38,337 nt of DNA from NCBI GenBank assembly GCA_943331345.2, contig CALQLF020000023.1:1-38337 (forward strand). Reading direction: 5' to 3'. Every line of letters starts with the position of its first letter. Position 1 is the first letter of the stretch. Below the pieces are notes generated by a model, which saw only the letters and a program-made list of their open reading frames with translations, was not told the DNA's origin and did not search any database. The position numbers and the translations under genes were made by a program. This document shows positions 1 to 28,558 of the stretch, piece after piece. The DNA comes from Candidatus Planktophila lacus. GTDB taxonomy: Bacteria; Pseudomonadota; Gammaproteobacteria; Steroidobacterales; Steroidobacteraceae.

Positions 1-785
1 CCGCCGCTCCCGGTTGTCATCCGTCGGCCGTAGTGGACGCCACTGCCAGCATTGCGCCTTCTGCGCATGTGGCGGCGCTGGCTTACGTGGGCCCGCGTGC
101 CGTTATTGGTGAACGCGCCTTCGTTGGTCCCGGATGTGTAGTCGAGGCTGATAGCGTCGTCGGTGAGGACACCCGCCTCGTGGCCCGCGTCACGCTGGGC
201 ACGCGCGTTAGGCTGGGCAAGCGCGTCATCCTTCACCCGGGCGTGGTGGTAGGGGGCGATGGCTTTGGTTTGGCGCCCGACAAAGACGGTTGGGTGAAAG
301 TGCCGCAAGTGGGTGGCGTGGTCATCGGCGACGACTGCGAAGTGGGCGCCAATACCACCATCGACCGCGGCGCCATCGAGGACACGGTCCTCGAAGAAGA
401 CGTCCGCCTCGACAACCAGATTCAGGTGGGCCACAACGTCCGCATTGGTGCGCATACGGCCATTGCCGCGTGCAGTGGCATTTCCGGCTCCACCACCATC
501 GGCAAGCGCTGCATCATCGGCGGCATGGTGGGCTTCGTTGGGCACCTCACCGTGGCGGATGGCACCATCGTCACAGGGCTCACCATGGTGAGCCATAGCA
601 TTCATACCGGGGGGGTATACTCCTCGGGCCTGCCCGCGGAAGACGGCGTCAAATGGCGCCGCACCGTGGCCCACTTGAAACGCCTCGACAAACTCGTCTC
701 TCGCGTGAAGGCGCTGGAGGGGGCTACCGGCCTCTCTGGCGGGGCAGGAGATGACACCGACAACGCCGAGAAGGAAGCAGAATGA
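1..785 (+). CDS. lpxD: UDP-3-O-acylglucosamine N-acyltransferase LpxD (5' end cut by window edge)
   Basis: Third step of lipid A synthesis: transfers a 3-hydroxyacyl chain from acyl-ACP to the 2-amino group of UDP-3-O-acyl-glucosamine in the cytoplasm. The reading frame is open from base 3, ahead of the first possible start (GTG at 33). The peptide before it reads [13 protein letters not shown], a normal LpxD interior, so the N-terminal uridine-binding domain lies outside the window. What is visible is the left-handed beta-helix of hexapeptide repeats, the motif QVGHNVRIG carrying the catalytic histidine (His239 in E. coli), GGMVGFVGH, and the C-terminal helical stretch [22 protein letters not shown]. 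The TGA stop overlaps the fabZ start by 4 bases. The identification rests on these motifs and on the lpxD-fabZ-lpxA order. Confidence 0.95.
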
Positions 786-1312
786 GCGCTGAGCCGTACA
801 TGGATATCGACGCGGTACGCAAGCAATTGCCGCACCGGTACCCGTTCCTCCTGGTCGACCGCGTGCTCGAGTGCGAGCCGGGCAAGACCATCCGCGCGCT
901 CAAGAACGTGACGGTGAATGAACCCTATTTCCCGGGGCATTTCCCGCACCGTCCGGTCATGCCGGGCGTCATGATTCTCGAGGCGCTAGCCCAAGCCGCT
1001 GGCATCCTCGCCTTCCGCACCGTGAATGTGGTGCCGGACGAAAACACCAAGTTTTATTTCGTCGGTATCGACGAGGCGCGGTTTCGCCGCCCCGTACAGC
1101 CCGGCGATCAGATCATCCTCGAGGCGACGCTGCTGCGGGCCCTGCGTGGCATCTGGAAGTTCGAGACGAAGGCCTTCGTGGATGGCGTGGAAGTCTGTTG
1201 CGCCATCATGATGGTGGCTCCGGAAACCGGTTCCAGTGCCCGTCAGGCCAAGCCGCCTAGTACTCAAGCCGGGGCGGATGCCGCTGCGGAGGCAGGCGAG
1301 GGCGCAGCATGA
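782..1312 (+). CDS. fabZ: 3-hydroxyacyl-ACP dehydratase FabZ
   Basis: Dehydrates 3-hydroxyacyl-ACP in fatty acid elongation, competing with LpxA and LpxD for hydroxyacyl-ACP. The hot-dog fold signature is clear: [13 protein letters not shown] near residue 16, then [21 protein letters not shown] with the catalytic His and, 14 residues on, the Glu. The protein has 176 residues against the usual 145-155. The excess is a C-terminal tail of about 25-30 residues rich in Ala, Gly and Glu after the core ends at MMVAPETG. It has no recognisable domain and is probably disordered. The ATG overlaps the lpxD stop and the TGA overlaps the lpxA start, so translation is probably coupled on both sides. Confidence 0.96.
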
Positions 1313-2079
1313 TTGACCCGCGCGCCGTCATTTCGCCCAAGGCACACCTCGACGAGGGCGTGTCGGTAGGTCCCTTCGCCGTCATCGGCGATGATGTCGT
1401 CATTGGCAAGGGCACCATCATTGCGCCCCACGCCATGGTGAACGGGCCCACCACCATGGGCTGCGACAACCACGTGTTCCAGTTCGCCTCCATCGGCGAC
1501 GCCCCGCAAGACAAGAAATACAAGGGCGAGCCTACGCGGCTGGAAATTGGCGACCGCAACGTGTTTCGCGAGAGCTGCACCATGAATCGCGGCACGGCGC
1601 AGGGCCATGGGGTAACGCGCATCGGCAGCGACAACCTTTTCATGGCTTATTCGCATGTGGGCCACGACAGTGTCGTTGGCGACCGCTGCATCCTGTCGAA
1701 CTGCACGGCGCTGGCGGGGCATGTGGAACTCGACGACTGGGTCATCCTCTCCGGCTATGCCGCAGTGCACCAGTTCTGCAAGATTGGCGCGCACGCGTTC
1801 TTGGCGAACAATGCTGCCGTGACGCGCGATGTGCCGCCTTACCTCATGGTGGCTGGTTCGCCGGCAGAGCCCGTCACCATCAATTCCGAAGGGTTGAAGC
1901 GGCGCGGGTTTTCGCCCGAGCAAATCGTCAACCTCAAGCATGCCTACAAGGTGCTGTACCGCCAGGGCCTGAAGCTGGCGGAAGCGGAGCTCGAACTGCG
2001 GCAGTTGGCCGCTACGCAGCCCGAGGTCGCGGCCTTCGTCGAGTTCTTCCCGCGCATCACGCGCTCCCTCATCCGCTGA
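1309..2079 (+). CDS. lpxA: UDP-N-acetylglucosamine O-acyltransferase LpxA
   Basis: First committed step of lipid A synthesis: moves 3-hydroxyacyl from ACP to the 3-OH of UDP-GlcNAc. It has 256 residues, close to the 262 of E. coli. It opens with hexapeptide repeats ([20 protein letters not shown]), contains the LpxA motif [18 protein letters not shown], and has [12 protein letters not shown] with the catalytic His (His125 in E. coli). The C-terminal helical domain ([23 protein letters not shown]) is intact. The start ATG overlaps the fabZ stop by 4 bases. The acyl-chain length it prefers cannot be told from the sequence alone. Confidence 0.97.
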
Positions 2080-2090
2080 GGCGGGTGCGT

Positions 2091-3287
2091 ATGGCCGCGC
2101 TGCGCATCGGCATCGTCGCCGGCGAGCATTCCGGCGACAACCTTGGTGCCGCTTTCATGCGCGAGGTGCTGGCCCGCGCTCCTGAAACCACATTTACTGG
2201 CATCGCGGGTCCTCGCATGCGCGCCGCTGGCTGTACGGTGCTGGCCGATGCGGAAGAGCTCGCCGTGATGGGCTTGTTCGAAGTGTTGCGTCATTTGCCG
2301 CGTTTGTTGCGGTTGCGCCGGCGCGTCGTCGAGGCCTTCCTGAAAGCCCCACCCGATGTCTTCGTTGGTATCGATGCGCCTGAGTTCAACCTGAACGTCG
2401 CCCCTCGGCTGCATGCCGCGGGAATTCCGACGGTGCAGTACGTCAGTCCGCAGGTGTGGGCGTGGCGGCAAGGGCGCGTCAAAAAGATGGCTCGCTCGCT
2501 CGACGAAGTGCTGTGCCTGCTGCCCTTCGAGACGCCGTTTTATTCGGGCCACGGGCTACCGGCCACGTTTGTCGGGCACCCACTCGCGGACCAACTCCCG
2601 CTGCAGCCTGACCGTGCCGCGGCGCGTGCTGCGCTCGGGCTACCGGCCGTGGGTCCCGTGGTGGCGGTGCTACCTGGCAGCCGTCGCGGTGAAGTGGAGC
2701 GCTTGGCACCGGTGTTTGCCGAAGCTTGCAGTTGGCTGCGAACGCATCTGCCCTTGGTGGAATGCGTGGCGCCCATGGCCAGTTCCGCTACCCGTGAGTT
2801 GTTCTCCAATGCTTGGTCTGCAGTCCATGCCGGGCCCGTGAAGTTGTTGGACGGGCAGGCGCAGTTGGCCATGACGGCGGCCGATGTGGTGCTGGTCGCT
2901 TCGGGCACTGCCACGCTCGAAGCCACCTTGTGCAAGCGCCCGATGGTGGTGGCGTATCGCTTATCGGGGGCCACGGCCGCCACCTTCCGCCTGCTTGGCT
3001 TGATGAAAGCCCCGTATTTTGCGCAGCCGAATTTGCTCGCTGGCGAGAGTGTTGTGCCCGAGCTTTTTCAGGAAGCGGCCAACGGACCGCAATTGGGCCA
3101 GGCCTTGCTGGACTGGTTCGAACAACCTGCGCGCGTTGCGGCACTGGAAGAACGCTTTCTTGGCATTCACCAACAGTTGCGGCGTGATGCCAGTGCGCGT
3201 GCCGCTGAAGCGGTGCTCGCGGTTGCGGCACGCAAGCGTGGCGCTGTGCCGACGCCCGGCGGTGCCGACGCAGGTGGCGCGCGATGA
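2091..3287 (+). CDS. lpxB: Lipid-A-disaccharide synthase LpxB
   Basis: Peripheral membrane GT19 glycosyltransferase that joins UDP-2,3-diacylglucosamine and lipid X into the lipid A disaccharide. Family marks are [15 protein letters not shown] at the N terminus, the IDAPEFNL and [18 protein letters not shown] segments, [20 protein letters not shown], and [11 protein letters not shown] in the UDP-binding half. It has 398 residues from the chosen ATG at 2091, which has a GAGG sequence about 9 bases upstream. A GTG six bases earlier (2085) is an alternative. There are only 11 bases after lpxA, and the TGA overlaps the rnhB start by 4 bases. Confidence 0.96.
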
Positions 3288-7662: not shown

Positions 7663-8622
7663 ATGGACCTGAATTTCCTGGATTTCGAGCAGCCCATCGC
7701 CGAGTTGGAAGCGAAGATCGACGAGCTTCGCTTCCTCGGCAATGACGCCGAGATCAATATCGTGGAGGAGGTGAACCGCCTCCGCGCCAAGAGTCGTACG
7801 CTCACCAAGAGCATCTTCTCGAACCTCACTCCGTGGCAGGTGGCGCAGTTGGCGCGGCATCCGCAGCGCCCATACACCTTCGACTACATCGCGCTGCTTT
7901 GCACGGACTTCCAGGAACTCCATGGCGACCGCATGTACGCGGACGACTTGGCTATCGTGGGCGGGCCGGCGCGTATCGATGGCCGTCCGGTCATGATCAT
8001 CGGTCAGCAGAAGGGTCGCGACACTAAAGAGCGCGTGCGCCGCAACTACGGCATGCCGCGTCCCGAGGGCTATCGCAAGGCGCTGCGTCTGATGCGTACG
8101 GCGGAACGCTTCAAACTGCCCATCATCACGTTCATCGATACGCCGGGTGCCTACCCGGGCGTGGGTTCTGAAGAGCGCAATCAGAGCGAGGCCATCGCGC
8201 GCAATCTGTTCGAGATGGCGCAGTTGCCCGTGCCTATCATCAGCACCGTCATTGGTGAGGGTGGTTCGGGCGGTGCATTGGCCATTGGCGTGTGTGATCG
8301 CTTGCTGATGCTTCAGTACAGCGTGTATTCGGTCATCTCACCGGAAGGCTGCGCGAGCATCCTGTGGAAGAGTTCCGACAAGAAAGAACTCGCTGCCGAA
8401 GCGATGGGCATTACGGCGGACCGCTTGAAGGGTCTCGGCCTCGTCGACGAAGTGCTCCCCGAGCCTTTGGGCGGTGCGCATCGCGATATTCAGGCCACCG
8501 TCGATTCCGTGAAGGCCGCCATCCTCAAACACCTCGACGCGCTGGAGAAGTTCACTCCCACCGAATTGCTGGCGCAGCGTGAAAAGCGCCTGGACGGCTT
8601 CGGTGTGTTCCGCGATCACTAA
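7663..8622 (+). CDS. accA: Acetyl-CoA carboxylase carboxyltransferase subunit alpha
   Basis: Alpha subunit of the carboxyltransferase that, with AccD, moves the carboxyl group from biotin to acetyl-CoA to make malonyl-CoA. It has 319 residues, the family length. It starts [22 protein letters not shown] and carries [56 protein letters not shown] and the closing [12 protein letters not shown]. The ATG at 7663 was chosen because it matches the family N terminus and has AAAGGG about 7 bases upstream. The frame is open 26 codons further up but shows no homology there. No accD is in the window. Confidence 0.97.
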
Positions 8623-8653
8623 CGACACGGATCACCAGCCGGCCAGCGCCCTC

Positions 8654-10273
8654 GTGCGTGGTCTCACCAGTGGGCTCATCACGGGTTTAGCGCGTTGTCT
8701 GGACCGTTGTCGTGAAGAACGGGGTGGGGCCGTGCCTTCGTTGGTGGCCGTGGCCGCCTCTGGCGGTGGCGATTCCAGCGCCTTGTTGCTCGCGCTGGCG
8801 CAGTTCACGGCGGTCGACTGGCAAACGGCTGGTTGGTCTACCCCTCCCCAATTGCGTGCGGTTCATTGCGACCATGGCCTGACGGCAGCCTCTCCAGCGC
8901 TGGAAGCCGCCGCCAAGGCCACCGCTGCTGCCGCTGGTGTGGTTTGCGAAGTACTGCGCCTGAATATCCCGCCTTCCCCCGGCGAGAGCATCGAGGCTAT
9001 CGCGCGGCTGCATCGGTATCGGGCGCTGGCGGACTGGCTGCCTGCGGGGGCTTGGGTGCTTACCGCCCACCATGCGGATGACCAAGCCGAGACATTGCTG
9101 CTGCAGGCGTTCCGTGGCGCCGGCCTTGAAGGGTTGGCAGCCATGCCTTGGCAAGCGGCGCTGGGCGCGGGAACCCACGCTCGCCCCTTGTTGGGGACGG
9201 CGCGCGCCACCCTTGCAGCGGCCGGGGCAGCACTCGGGTTGCAGGAAGGCGAGCATTTCACGCTAGACCCCATGAACGTGGACCCGCGACTGGACCGCGC
9301 TTACCTGCGCCACACCGTTTGGCCTTTGCTCGAGGCGCGCTGGCCGGGTGCGAACCTCACGCTTTCCCGCTCGGCTGGGCATTTGCAGGACGCCTTGCGG
9401 GTAGTGGACGAGGCGGTGGATGCCGATTTGCAGCCGCTGCTAGCCCCGCTGGATTGCCCGGGGGTGCCGTTTGGCAGGAAGCCTGACATGGGAGCTTGCT
9501 CCCGACAGGAAGAGTCGCGAGCAAGCTCGCTCCCACAAAAGCCTGTGGGGTTGCTTCCACGTCTGGCTGCAACGACTCTCGACCAAGCGGGGTTGAAGGC
9601 TTTGCCTTTGGCCCGTCGGGCGCAGGTGCTGCGGGCCTGGGTTCGCGGCGAAGGTCACCGTTCGCCGCCGGCGGCGCGCGTGGGCACGCTGGTGGACCAG
9701 ATGCTCGAGGCCCGCGGCGATGCCGCACCCTGCGTCCTCTGGGGCGAAAGCGAGATTCATGCTTGGCGCGGGCGCTATTACCTCGGGCACGCGGCGGGCA
9801 AGACCTTGGCACAACGCTTGGCAAGCATGGCCGACCCACCACCACCCTGGCGGCAGGAACTGCCCCGCATGGGCGCCTTGCCGGTGGTGCCGGGCTGCCC
9901 GGCCGTCGATTTGGGGCCCGCGGGCCGGTTGTCGCTCGTGGCGGCGACGGAAGGCCCGCGCCTCGTGGCCCCGCCCGACCAAGTATTCATGGTGCGCGGG
10001 CGGGTAGGGGGCGAGCGCCTGCGCATTCGCCCTTTGGTACAGGGCGCCCATCAGGACGTGCGCAAATTGCTGCAATCGGTGGCCGTTCCGCCCTGGCTGC
10101 GCGATGACGTGCCCTACCTCTGGCTGGTGCCTGCCGCGACGGCTGCAGCCGCGGAACGCAGCTTCGTTCCCGGGGAATTGGTGGCGGTCGGCGAGCGGTT
10201 CCTGGACGTCTTTCTGCTGGCCCGCGGCGAAGAACCCGGTTGGCGGGTAGTCTGGGAAGCGCCGTTCGCGTAA
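8654..10273 (+). CDS. tilS: tRNA(Ile)-lysidine synthase TilS
   Basis: Uses ATP and lysine to turn C34 of tRNA-Ile(CAU) into lysidine, so that it reads AUA codons. The PP-loop ATPase motif ASGGGDSSALL lies near residue 36 (the usual form is SGGxDS). AVHCDHGL, HHADDQAETLLLQAFRGAGLEGLAAM and RPLL follow. The central dimerisation and C-terminal tRNA-binding domains follow a linker (ALPLARRAQVLRAW; RVGGERLRIRPLVQGAHQDVRKLLQ; PPWLRDDVPYLW). The start is uncertain: the frame is open back to a GTG at 8579 inside accA. GTG 8654 is the first start after the accA stop; none has a clear ribosome site. In the linker, a REPIN palindrome adds exactly 20 codons (9479-9538) encoding a Ser/Gln/Arg-rich peptide absent from the usual family layout. 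Confidence 0.9.
   Translation: MRGLTSGLITGLARCLDRCREERGGAVPSLVAVAASGGGDSSALLLALAQFTAVDWQTAGWSTPPQLRAVHCDHGLTAASPALEAAAKATAAAAGVVCEVLRLNIPPSPGESIEAIARLHRYRALADWLPAGAWVLTAHHADDQAETLLLQAFRGAGLEGLAAMPWQAALGAGTHARPLLGTARATLAAAGAALGLQEGEHFTLDPMNVDPRLDRAYLRHTVWPLLEARWPGANLTLSRSAGHLQDALRVVDEAVDADLQPLLAPLDCPGVPFGRKPDMGACSRQEESRASSLPQKPVGLLPRLAATTLDQAGLKALPLARRAQVLRAWVRGEGHRSPPAARVGTLVDQMLEARGDAAPCVLWGESEIHAWRGRYYLGHAAGKTLAQRLASMADPPPPWRQELPRMGALPVVPGCPAVDLGPAGRLSLVAATEGPRLVAPPDQVFMVRGRVGGERLRIRPLVQGAHQDVRKLLQSVAVPPWLRDDVPYLWLVPAATAAAAERSFVPGELVAVGERFLDVFLLARGEEPGWRVVWEAPFA
9486..9538 (+). repeat. REPIN (inverted REP pair) inside tilS
   Basis: Two REP palindromes lie in inverted orientation. The first has stem GGGAGC/GCTCCC (9490-9495 and 9498-9503). 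The second has GCGAGC/GCTCGC (9517-9522 and 9525-9530) and ends in TCCCACA. The halves also pair with each other: 9494-9506 is complementary to 9514-9526 with one mismatch in 13. The unit is of the Pseudomonas GTGGGAGCGAGCTTGCTCGC class. AAGCCTG flanks it at 9479-9485 and 9539-9545. Bases 9513-9537 are identical to 28534-28558 downstream of murI. It is translated in frame within tilS. Confidence 0.85.
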
Positions 10274-27688: not shown

Positions 27689-28531
27689 ATGGACACCAAG
27701 CCCGCCATTGCCCGCGCCGCGCCTATTGGAGTGTTCGATTCCGGCGTGGGCGGCCTAACCGTGCTGCGCGCGCTGGCGGAACAATTGCCCGCCGAGCGCT
27801 TCCTTTACCTTGGTGACACCGCGCGTTTGCCTTACGGCACCAAGACCGCGGACACGGTCATCCGCTATTCCGTGCAATGCGCCGGGCGTTTGGTAGAGCG
27901 CGGCGTGAAGGCTCTGGTTGTTGCCTGCAACACTGCGAGCAGCGTGGCTTTGCCTGCCTTGGCGGCGGCGTACCCCGGTATTCCAGTGCTGGGTGTGGTG
28001 GAGCCAGGCGCGGAGGCGGCCGTCGCCGCCACCCGTAACGGCCACGTGGCGGTTATTGCTACCGAAGGTACTGTACGCGGTGGGGCGTATTTGCGGGCGT
28101 TGCAGACGCGCCGGCCGGGGCTACGCGTGACGCAAGTTCCGTGCGCACTATTCGTTTCGTTGGCTGAAGAGGGCTGGACGGACGGCGCCGTGGCGGAAGC
28201 GGTAGCGCATCGCTACCTCGATACGGTCTTCACGGGCCCCGATGCGCCCGATACCTTGCTGCTGGGTTGCACGCACTTTCCCGTGTTGAAGGCGATGCTT
28301 GGTCGGGTCGTGGGTTCAGGTGTGACGCTGGTCGACAGCGCCGCTACCACTGCGGCAGCCATGGAGGTTTTGTTGGCCGGCATGGAGGCGCGGGAGCAAG
28401 CTCCCTCCTACAGCGACGTCTCGCGCTTCCACTTTCTGGCTACCGACGGCCTGGAGCGCTTTGCGCGGGTGGGCGCCACCTTCATGGGCACACCGATCGC
28501 CACGGACGAATTGGAACTCGTAGACCTCTAG
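27689..28531 (+). CDS. murI: Glutamate racemase
   Basis: Makes D-glutamate for peptidoglycan without a cofactor. It has 280 residues. IGVFDSGVGGLTVLRAL is at the N terminus. The two catalytic cysteines are in VVACNTASSVALPAL (Cys80) and LLLGCTHFPVLKAML (Cys194); YLGDTARLPYG is also typical. A G-rich region and CAGGTAG precede the ATG. Near the C terminus, REAREQAPSYSD-type residues (GMEAREQAPSYSD) are encoded by a REP-like palindrome at 28392-28412, in a loop that varies between homologues. The catalytic residues are unaffected. Confidence 0.95.
   Translation: MDTKPAIARAAPIGVFDSGVGGLTVLRALAEQLPAERFLYLGDTARLPYGTKTADTVIRYSVQCAGRLVERGVKALVVACNTASSVALPALAAAYPGIPVLGVVEPGAEAAVAATRNGHVAVIATEGTVRGGAYLRALQTRRPGLRVTQVPCALFVSLAEEGWTDGAVAEAVAHRYLDTVFTGPDAPDTLLLGCTHFPVLKAMLGRVVGSGVTLVDSAATTAAAMEVLLAGMEAREQAPSYSDVSRFHFLATDGLERFARVGATFMGTPIATDELELVDL
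28392..28412 (+). repeat. REP-like palindrome inside murI
   Basis: GGGAGC-AA-GCTCCC (28392-28405 region) followed by TCCTACA repeats the core and tail of the REP element found in tilS and after murI, in the same orientation as the copy after murI. It is translated as part of MurI. Confidence 0.7.
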
Positions 28532-28533
28532 GG

Positions 28534-28558
28534 AGTCGCGAGCAAGCTCGCTCCCACA
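28534..28558 (+). repeat. REP element downstream of murI
   Basis: A 25-base copy, identical to 9513-9537 in tilS, starts 3 bases after the murI stop. It has stem GCGAGC/GCTCGC and tail TCCCACA. It lies between convergent genes, the usual location for REP elements, and could stabilise or terminate the murI transcript. Confidence 0.85.

Follow-up and report, generated by a model that had tools for sequence, protein, structure and literature searches.

The tilS gene described here contains REPIN-derived DNA within its reading frame, very probably an old insert in a tolerant loop of TilS that has been kept in frame, is decaying in sister species and may have been renewed in this genome. The gene, encoding tRNA(Ile)-lysidine synthetase, occupies positions 8579-10273 (plus strand) of the 38,337-nucleotide stretch of DNA analysed as a whole (the window), with 564 amino acids according to the ORF list and the true start maybe downstream. 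The window belongs to genome G000 (3.17 Mb, 184 contigs, 96% complete). The translated ORF matches the Pfam domains PF01171 (ATP_bind_3, 56-245), PF09179 (TilS, 334-400) and PF11734 (TilS_C, 471-516) in this order as well as TIGR02432/TIGR02433, and orthologs are present in three congeners, i.e. G001 and G002, which are closest to G000 among the species compared (85-86% tilS nucleotide identity), and G003, a more distant member of the same genus (60%). Based on the alignment the insert comprises 27 codons in G000 (F298-G324, 9470-9550, plus strand). The original prediction had placed it between the ATPase and substrate-binding domains, which agrees with the Pfam domain order. The tilS frame is open across the whole insert and encodes the peptide FGRKPDMGACSRQEESRASSLPQKPVG. 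Frame, orthologs and domain order leave little alternative to the insert being translated within TilS.

Two inverted REP palindromes are found in frame at 9489-9537, as had been predicted. The left one is a short-type (GG/CC) palindrome, TGGGAGCTTGCTCCCGAC (9489-9506, plus strand), with its 5' head missing or altered: the upstream sequence is CTGACAT instead of TGTRGGA, and thus provides no GTAG or GTGG head. It is followed by the REPIN spacer AGGAAGA (9507-9513, plus strand), which is identical in the best other copy of the genome (C33:26303), and by a complete long-type (CG/CG) REP, TGTGGGAGCGAGCTTGCTCGCGAC (9514-9537, minus strand), which carries the GTGG head and shows no mismatch to the genome-wide core. 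The inverted arms comprise 9492-9506 and 9514-9528, and the close pair is able to form one hairpin, an arrangement also seen in other genomic copies. Over 49 bases the tilS unit and C33:26303 are identical at 47 positions. As the left unit is without a head we refer to it as a headless derivative and to the whole as REPIN-derived, there being no intact REPIN. The location of the unit is not extragenic, as is otherwise expected of a REP. We did not treat this as excluding, since intragenic units are counted as REPs in the consulted part of a previous study (PMC3733652). The pair is flanked by two copies of AAGCCTG (9479-9485 and 9539-9545, both plus strand) with a spacing of 60, again as predicted. 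At the homologous positions the left copy reads AAGCCCG in G001 and AAGCCTG in G002, and the right copy AAACCCG and AAGCCCG, respectively.

The palindromes are abundant in G000. A genome-wide count, suggested together with the prediction, shows that they are not unique in the genome: the long type has 312 sites at up to two mismatches (reversed pattern: 1) and the short type 152 at up to one mismatch (reversed pattern: 0). Taken as the full 23-mer with its GTRG head, the repeat occurs (up to one mismatch) 403 times in G000, 31 times in G001, 41 times in G002 and 23 times in G003, with no match of the reversed control in any of them. Among 116 other genomes of the family one has any such site (two sites), and one shows a single control match. 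Judged by eye, the three stem types (CG/CG, GG/CC and GC/GC) share one common frame, TGTRGGAG..AGCTTGCT..CGAC.

The search for a RAYT gene, likewise proposed at the outset, identified one in G000 (C19:170-571; L143:119-643; minus strand; NF047646 with 114 bits vs a cut-off of 80). On either side of it stands a perfect long REP, the two being inverted relative to each other (C19:76-95(+) and C19:774-793(-)), which corresponds to the RAYT organisation published in the part of PMC2817692 consulted. With the same REPs inverted on both sides it qualifies as the RAYT cognate to the tilS REPs. High copy number, a RAYT with the same REPs and the open frame together support the original notion that REPIN-derived DNA has turned into coding sequence. 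A profile search did not find a RAYT in G001 (99% complete), G003 (100%) or G002 (only 75% complete), which leaves a role of RAYT in the first insertion at tilS conjectural. Still, G001 and G003 contain 31 and 23 REPs.

The prediction had described an exact insertion of 60 bases or 20 codons, which would be absent from sister species and whose flanks would collapse there to a single AAGCCTG. This part is not borne out by the congeners. In G001 and G002 the insert is retained in a decayed form that is 18 bases (6 codons) shorter, lacking the short REP and with both flank repeats altered. At the aligned loop the closest match to a REP has two mismatches in G001 and three in G002, while control windows of the same length elsewhere in tilS give 0/173 and 0/172 matches, respectively, even at up to four mismatches. 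This is further supported by a scan of G001 made blind to tilS, which picks up the loop (C301:21087, two mismatches; 82 sites vs 5 in the control). In the G003 gene 27 codons are missing by alignment (9470-9550), including both AAGCCTG copies. Outside the genus we aligned the best 26 loci of the 168 family genomes with a match. All 25 loci that cover the site are devoid of the insert and one (L061) ends before it, so the peptide is not conserved in these family TilS proteins. The loop of one family TilS (L051) is longer in a different way and by eye is not REP-like. No clean empty site close enough for reading the junction was found, and none of G001, G002 and G003 shows flanks reduced to a single AAGCCTG.

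The position and the residual REP sequence are common to G000, G001 and G002, which shows, at the level of the alignments, that REP DNA was at the tilS site before the three separated. G001 and G002 are nearest kin, with a difference at fourfold sites of tilS of 0.16 compared to 0.38 and 0.36 to G000, and the shorter form therefore fits a common G001/G002 lineage. The flank repeat is likewise old, judging from the survival of both copies, altered, in G001 and G002.

The G000 copy itself looks younger than its site. None of the 37 bases of its REP cores deviates from the consensus, while the gene-average rate predicts 2.8 changes along the branch to G000 (P0 0.05) and the fourfold rate 7.0 (P0 0.0004). 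Cores at consensus and the 47/49 match to a genomic copy, despite high silent divergence, suggest that the copy was renewed after the split, by re-insertion or gene conversion. We give this moderate weight, as the test concerns one gene that was picked for clean palindromes, a bias, and is only borderline at the gene-average rate. In a comparison across genes, all chosen for REPs in G000, the arrays of G000 are often longer than those of its sisters; the reverse is seen in IleS and RibD (G001) and in AceF and PPT (G002). In a zinc-dehydrogenase gene a perfect REP core is located in the same loop in G000 (L176:2596-2696, C6) and G003 (L305:138-160, C49), although 39% of fourfold sites differ in the rest of the gene. 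This REP may stem from repeated insertion or from homogenisation.

In another possible history, which we regard as unlikely, a REPIN was inserted just once, in the ancestor and with a target-site duplication of 7-8 bases, and then only decayed, with an 18-base in-frame deletion in the ancestor of G001 and G002 and no renewal in G000. It would account for the flank repeats that can still be made out in G000, G001 and G002 (AAGCC[CT]G on the left, A[AG]CC[CT]G on the right) and for the same shorter form in the two nearest kin, but not for the unchanged G000 cores. Nor do REP sites in general clearly point to such duplications. Direct repeats of at least 6 bases flank 5 of 112 G000 REP clusters (60-nt rule, clusters near slice ends excluded) compared to a shuffle mean of 2.4 (P 0.094), and repeats of at least 7 bases flank 2 of 112 compared to 0.6 (P 0.121). 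Looser flanks admitting two element bases give 8/112 with at least 6 bases, vs 3.1 expected; the stricter version was used instead. Furthermore, IS200/IS605 transposases make no larger target duplications, as stated in the part of PMC2817692 consulted. Target-site duplication as a general rule at REP sites is thus not supported. The AAGCCTG flank noticed originally is real at tilS, where a 7-base repeat would suit a MITE/DDE-type target duplication, but it has no counterpart in a significant excess across the 112 clusters.

A second alternative takes AAGCCTG as part of a degraded REP array, so that the insertion would exceed 60 bases, the right AAGCCTGTGGGGTTGCTTCC resembling a decayed REP head plus stem. 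The absence of 27 rather than 20 codons from G003 agrees with it, as does C33:26303, whose match extends across 60 bases and takes in the right-hand GCCTGTGGG, but C33 passes into unrelated sequence beyond GCCTGTGGG. Clusters of 3-7 REPs are common in G000 (63 of 108 clusters, holding 332 REPs in total, in 1,026,925 surveyed bases, a third of the genome with the window included, from contigs partly chosen for holding REPs and hence no random sample). However, AAGCC occurs in the 16 bases upstream of just 3 of these 332 REPs, tilS included, and LLPRLAATTL aligns with VFPTAAQDTL of G003, indicating that the right part may be native. We consider this array improbable, more so than the single insertion.

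Folded as single-stranded DNA, 9479-9545 reaches -15.8 kcal/mol compared to -8.9 in shuffles (z -3.1), and only 1 of 200 shuffles is as good. In an AlphaFold2 model based on 30 TilS sequences (mean pLDDT 80.5, pTM 0.73) residues 294-325 have a pLDDT below 50, with 95 and 92 for the nearest folded blocks before and after them. The REP-encoded peptide is accordingly modelled, and here predicted, as a disordered loop between the TilS domains. That the insert was co-opted, with the loop or an mRNA hairpin tuning TilS expression or tRNA binding, is very doubtful: the strong DNA hairpin of G000 and the conservation of SLP-KPVGLLPR, at the C-terminal side of the peptide, in G000, G001 and G002 are countered by the decayed REP and changed peptide of G001 and G002, by the predicted disorder and by the presence of the same REPs in many unrelated proteins. 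Most likely the insert in TilS is without useful function.

We thus favour the old, probably renewed insert of REPIN origin. A pair of GTAG/GTGG-superfamily REPs, inverted and with the left one headless, has become coding in the loop between the PP-loop ATPase and the substrate-binding domains, the REP DNA entering this loop before G000, G001 and G002 split. As the consensus shows, a REP of the GTGG form has no stop in any of the six frames and yields a short peptide, and the model predicts a disordered loop; both would explain why the insert was tolerated. Selection would have restricted changes in length to whole codons. In G001 and G002 the REP has decayed, and the difference of 18 bases would reflect either a loss in these two or a gain in G000. 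In G000, with its RAYT and many more REPs, the copy was probably renewed by re-insertion or gene conversion after the split.

Besides tilS, the genus has further sites of this kind. We scored a REP cluster as intragenic if an open frame and coding-like sequence were present on both sides (ORF plus hexamer coding score). With the strict 23-mer this holds for 19 of 98 clusters (G000), 3 of 24 (G001) and 1 of 12 (G003), after clusters at slice edges had been dropped (9, 1 and 2, respectively); the counts for G001 and G003 took in all REPs of those genomes. By this criterion 1914 of 3000 random positions in the G000 DNA would count as intragenic. REPs therefore avoid genes approximately threefold, yet a fifth of the scored G000 clusters are intragenic, and the coding REPIN-derived DNA at tilS is real as predicted but not singular. 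A role of genes as a refuge for REP relics after RAYT loss is not supported with the strict 23-mer, as the intragenic clusters of G001 and G003 show no enrichment.

The hosts of intragenic REPs, with the REPs located in or beside the domains, include an exosortase, an ABC-F ATPase, IleRS, RibD, phosphoglucose isomerase, two 2-oxoacid dehydrogenase E2 proteins, DNA polymerase I, lipoyl-Lpd, zinc dehydrogenase, a double ABC ATPase, TrpF, a phosphopantetheinyl transferase, a PLP decarboxylase and a trehalase. They derive from the 19 best-scoring ORFs, for which tilS and 16 of the 18 others were scanned with Pfam (15 of the 16 with a domain), a GltX-like and an acyl-CoA dehydrogenase gene being outside the scan; several ORF names are a reading of the translations. 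These 19 ORFs and the 19 intragenic clusters rest on different REP definitions and are not matched one by one.

In DNA polymerase I five REPs spanning about 57 codons (L238:2070-2239 in ORF 230-3277; C112 of G000) are inserted between the 5'-nuclease and 3'-5' exonuclease domains. In each of the three congeners this linker is shorter and includes a REP match at two mismatches. The GltX-like gene (G000 C19:20114-20237) contains, beside a REP, a tandem array of three GNAAAM units plus a partial fourth that is not found in the orthologs of G001, G002 and G003. Within the window an S-type REP palindrome, read as REQAPSY, is located at 28390-28412 (minus strand) close to the C-terminal end of an ORF of the Asp/Glu racemase family (27689-28531), which we take from its translation to be MurI-like. 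A perfect long REP (28535-28558) lies just past the stop codon of this ORF.

The consensus is open in six frames in the GTGG form and in five in the GTAG form. The 49 intragenic full REPs use five frames, and none of them (0/49) is in frame with the TAG of the head, although REPs within a cluster are not independent. GTGG heads are found in 33 of 49 REPs in genes compared to 125 of 235 (Fisher P 0.08), which is a trend only. Among genes with an ortholog found and the loop covered, the loop contains a REP at up to two mismatches in 9 of 15 cases in G001, 4 of 9 in G002 and 4 of 16 in G003, and at up to three mismatches in 11 of 15 (G001) and 7 of 9 (G002). Control windows at up to two mismatches are clean in the sisters except for ModF (4/152) and AceF (5/172 and 6/149), perhaps due to other REPs nearby. 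On these alignments, intragenic REP sites are common to species of the genus, which says nothing on whether G000 is typical.

Rickettsia palindromic elements (RPEs) are cited to Ogata 2000/2002. The tilS REPs resemble them in being in-frame palindromes in core genes, with insertion at the same locus in orthologs even though the repeat has diverged (PMC3767692, PMC10969869, as far as consulted). According to the same parts of these sources RPEs differ in being longer (100-150 bp), alphaproteobacterial and marked by a CGTC end, and CGTC repeats are listed without association with a transposase gene. The heads of the tilS REPs read GTRG, with no CGTC at one end, and we therefore speak of RPE-like behaviour but do not class them as RPEs. 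Likeness to REPINs and RAYTs is seen in the inverted doublet with a predicted hairpin and in a RAYT between two inverted REPs, and similar REP words, e.g. GTAGGAGCCAGCTTGCTGGCGAA, are listed for Pseudomonas; in contrast to the tilS unit inside a reading frame, the elements are described as extragenic in the portions of PMC3116915 and PMC2817692 used here.

The closest precedent is the GTAG REPs inside ORFs of Di Nocera et al. 2013 (PMC3733652), which belong to the same superfamily and in one family have GTGG heads. In the sections consulted, over half of the intragenic REPs occur as dimers or groups and add 20-30 residues to the protein, the targets include tRNA synthetases and DNA polymerase I, and tolerance in linkers or loops is proposed; tilS is not among the genes named there. 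The cross-species comparison in those sections concerns few genes (recB of two Xanthomonas, at about the same site), whereas here about 15 sites were followed in congeners. A literature search for TilS together with a REP element found nothing related by title. Intragenic REPs and site-conserved coding palindromes, i.e. the Rickettsia RPEs, are thus already published, and tilS adds a good comparative setting.

As far as the literature considered goes, the history of intragenic REPs, which are known as such, has rarely been traced. Here, four congeners present the same codons under REP DNA at different stages of decay, and one RAYT-bearing, REP-rich species stands beside relatives in which no RAYT was found. 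This setting makes it possible to test the rewriting of coding REPs by RAYT, the avoidance of frameshifts and the feeding of new linkers into essential enzymes by mobile DNA. We tentatively suggest that loops in this genus may be long-lived, self-renewing docking sites for REPs, which are occupied across species and in which palindromes are replaced or multiplied where a RAYT is active. If so, the linkers of TilS, PolA, AceF, IleS and TrpF would evolve in concert as one population of mobile DNA.
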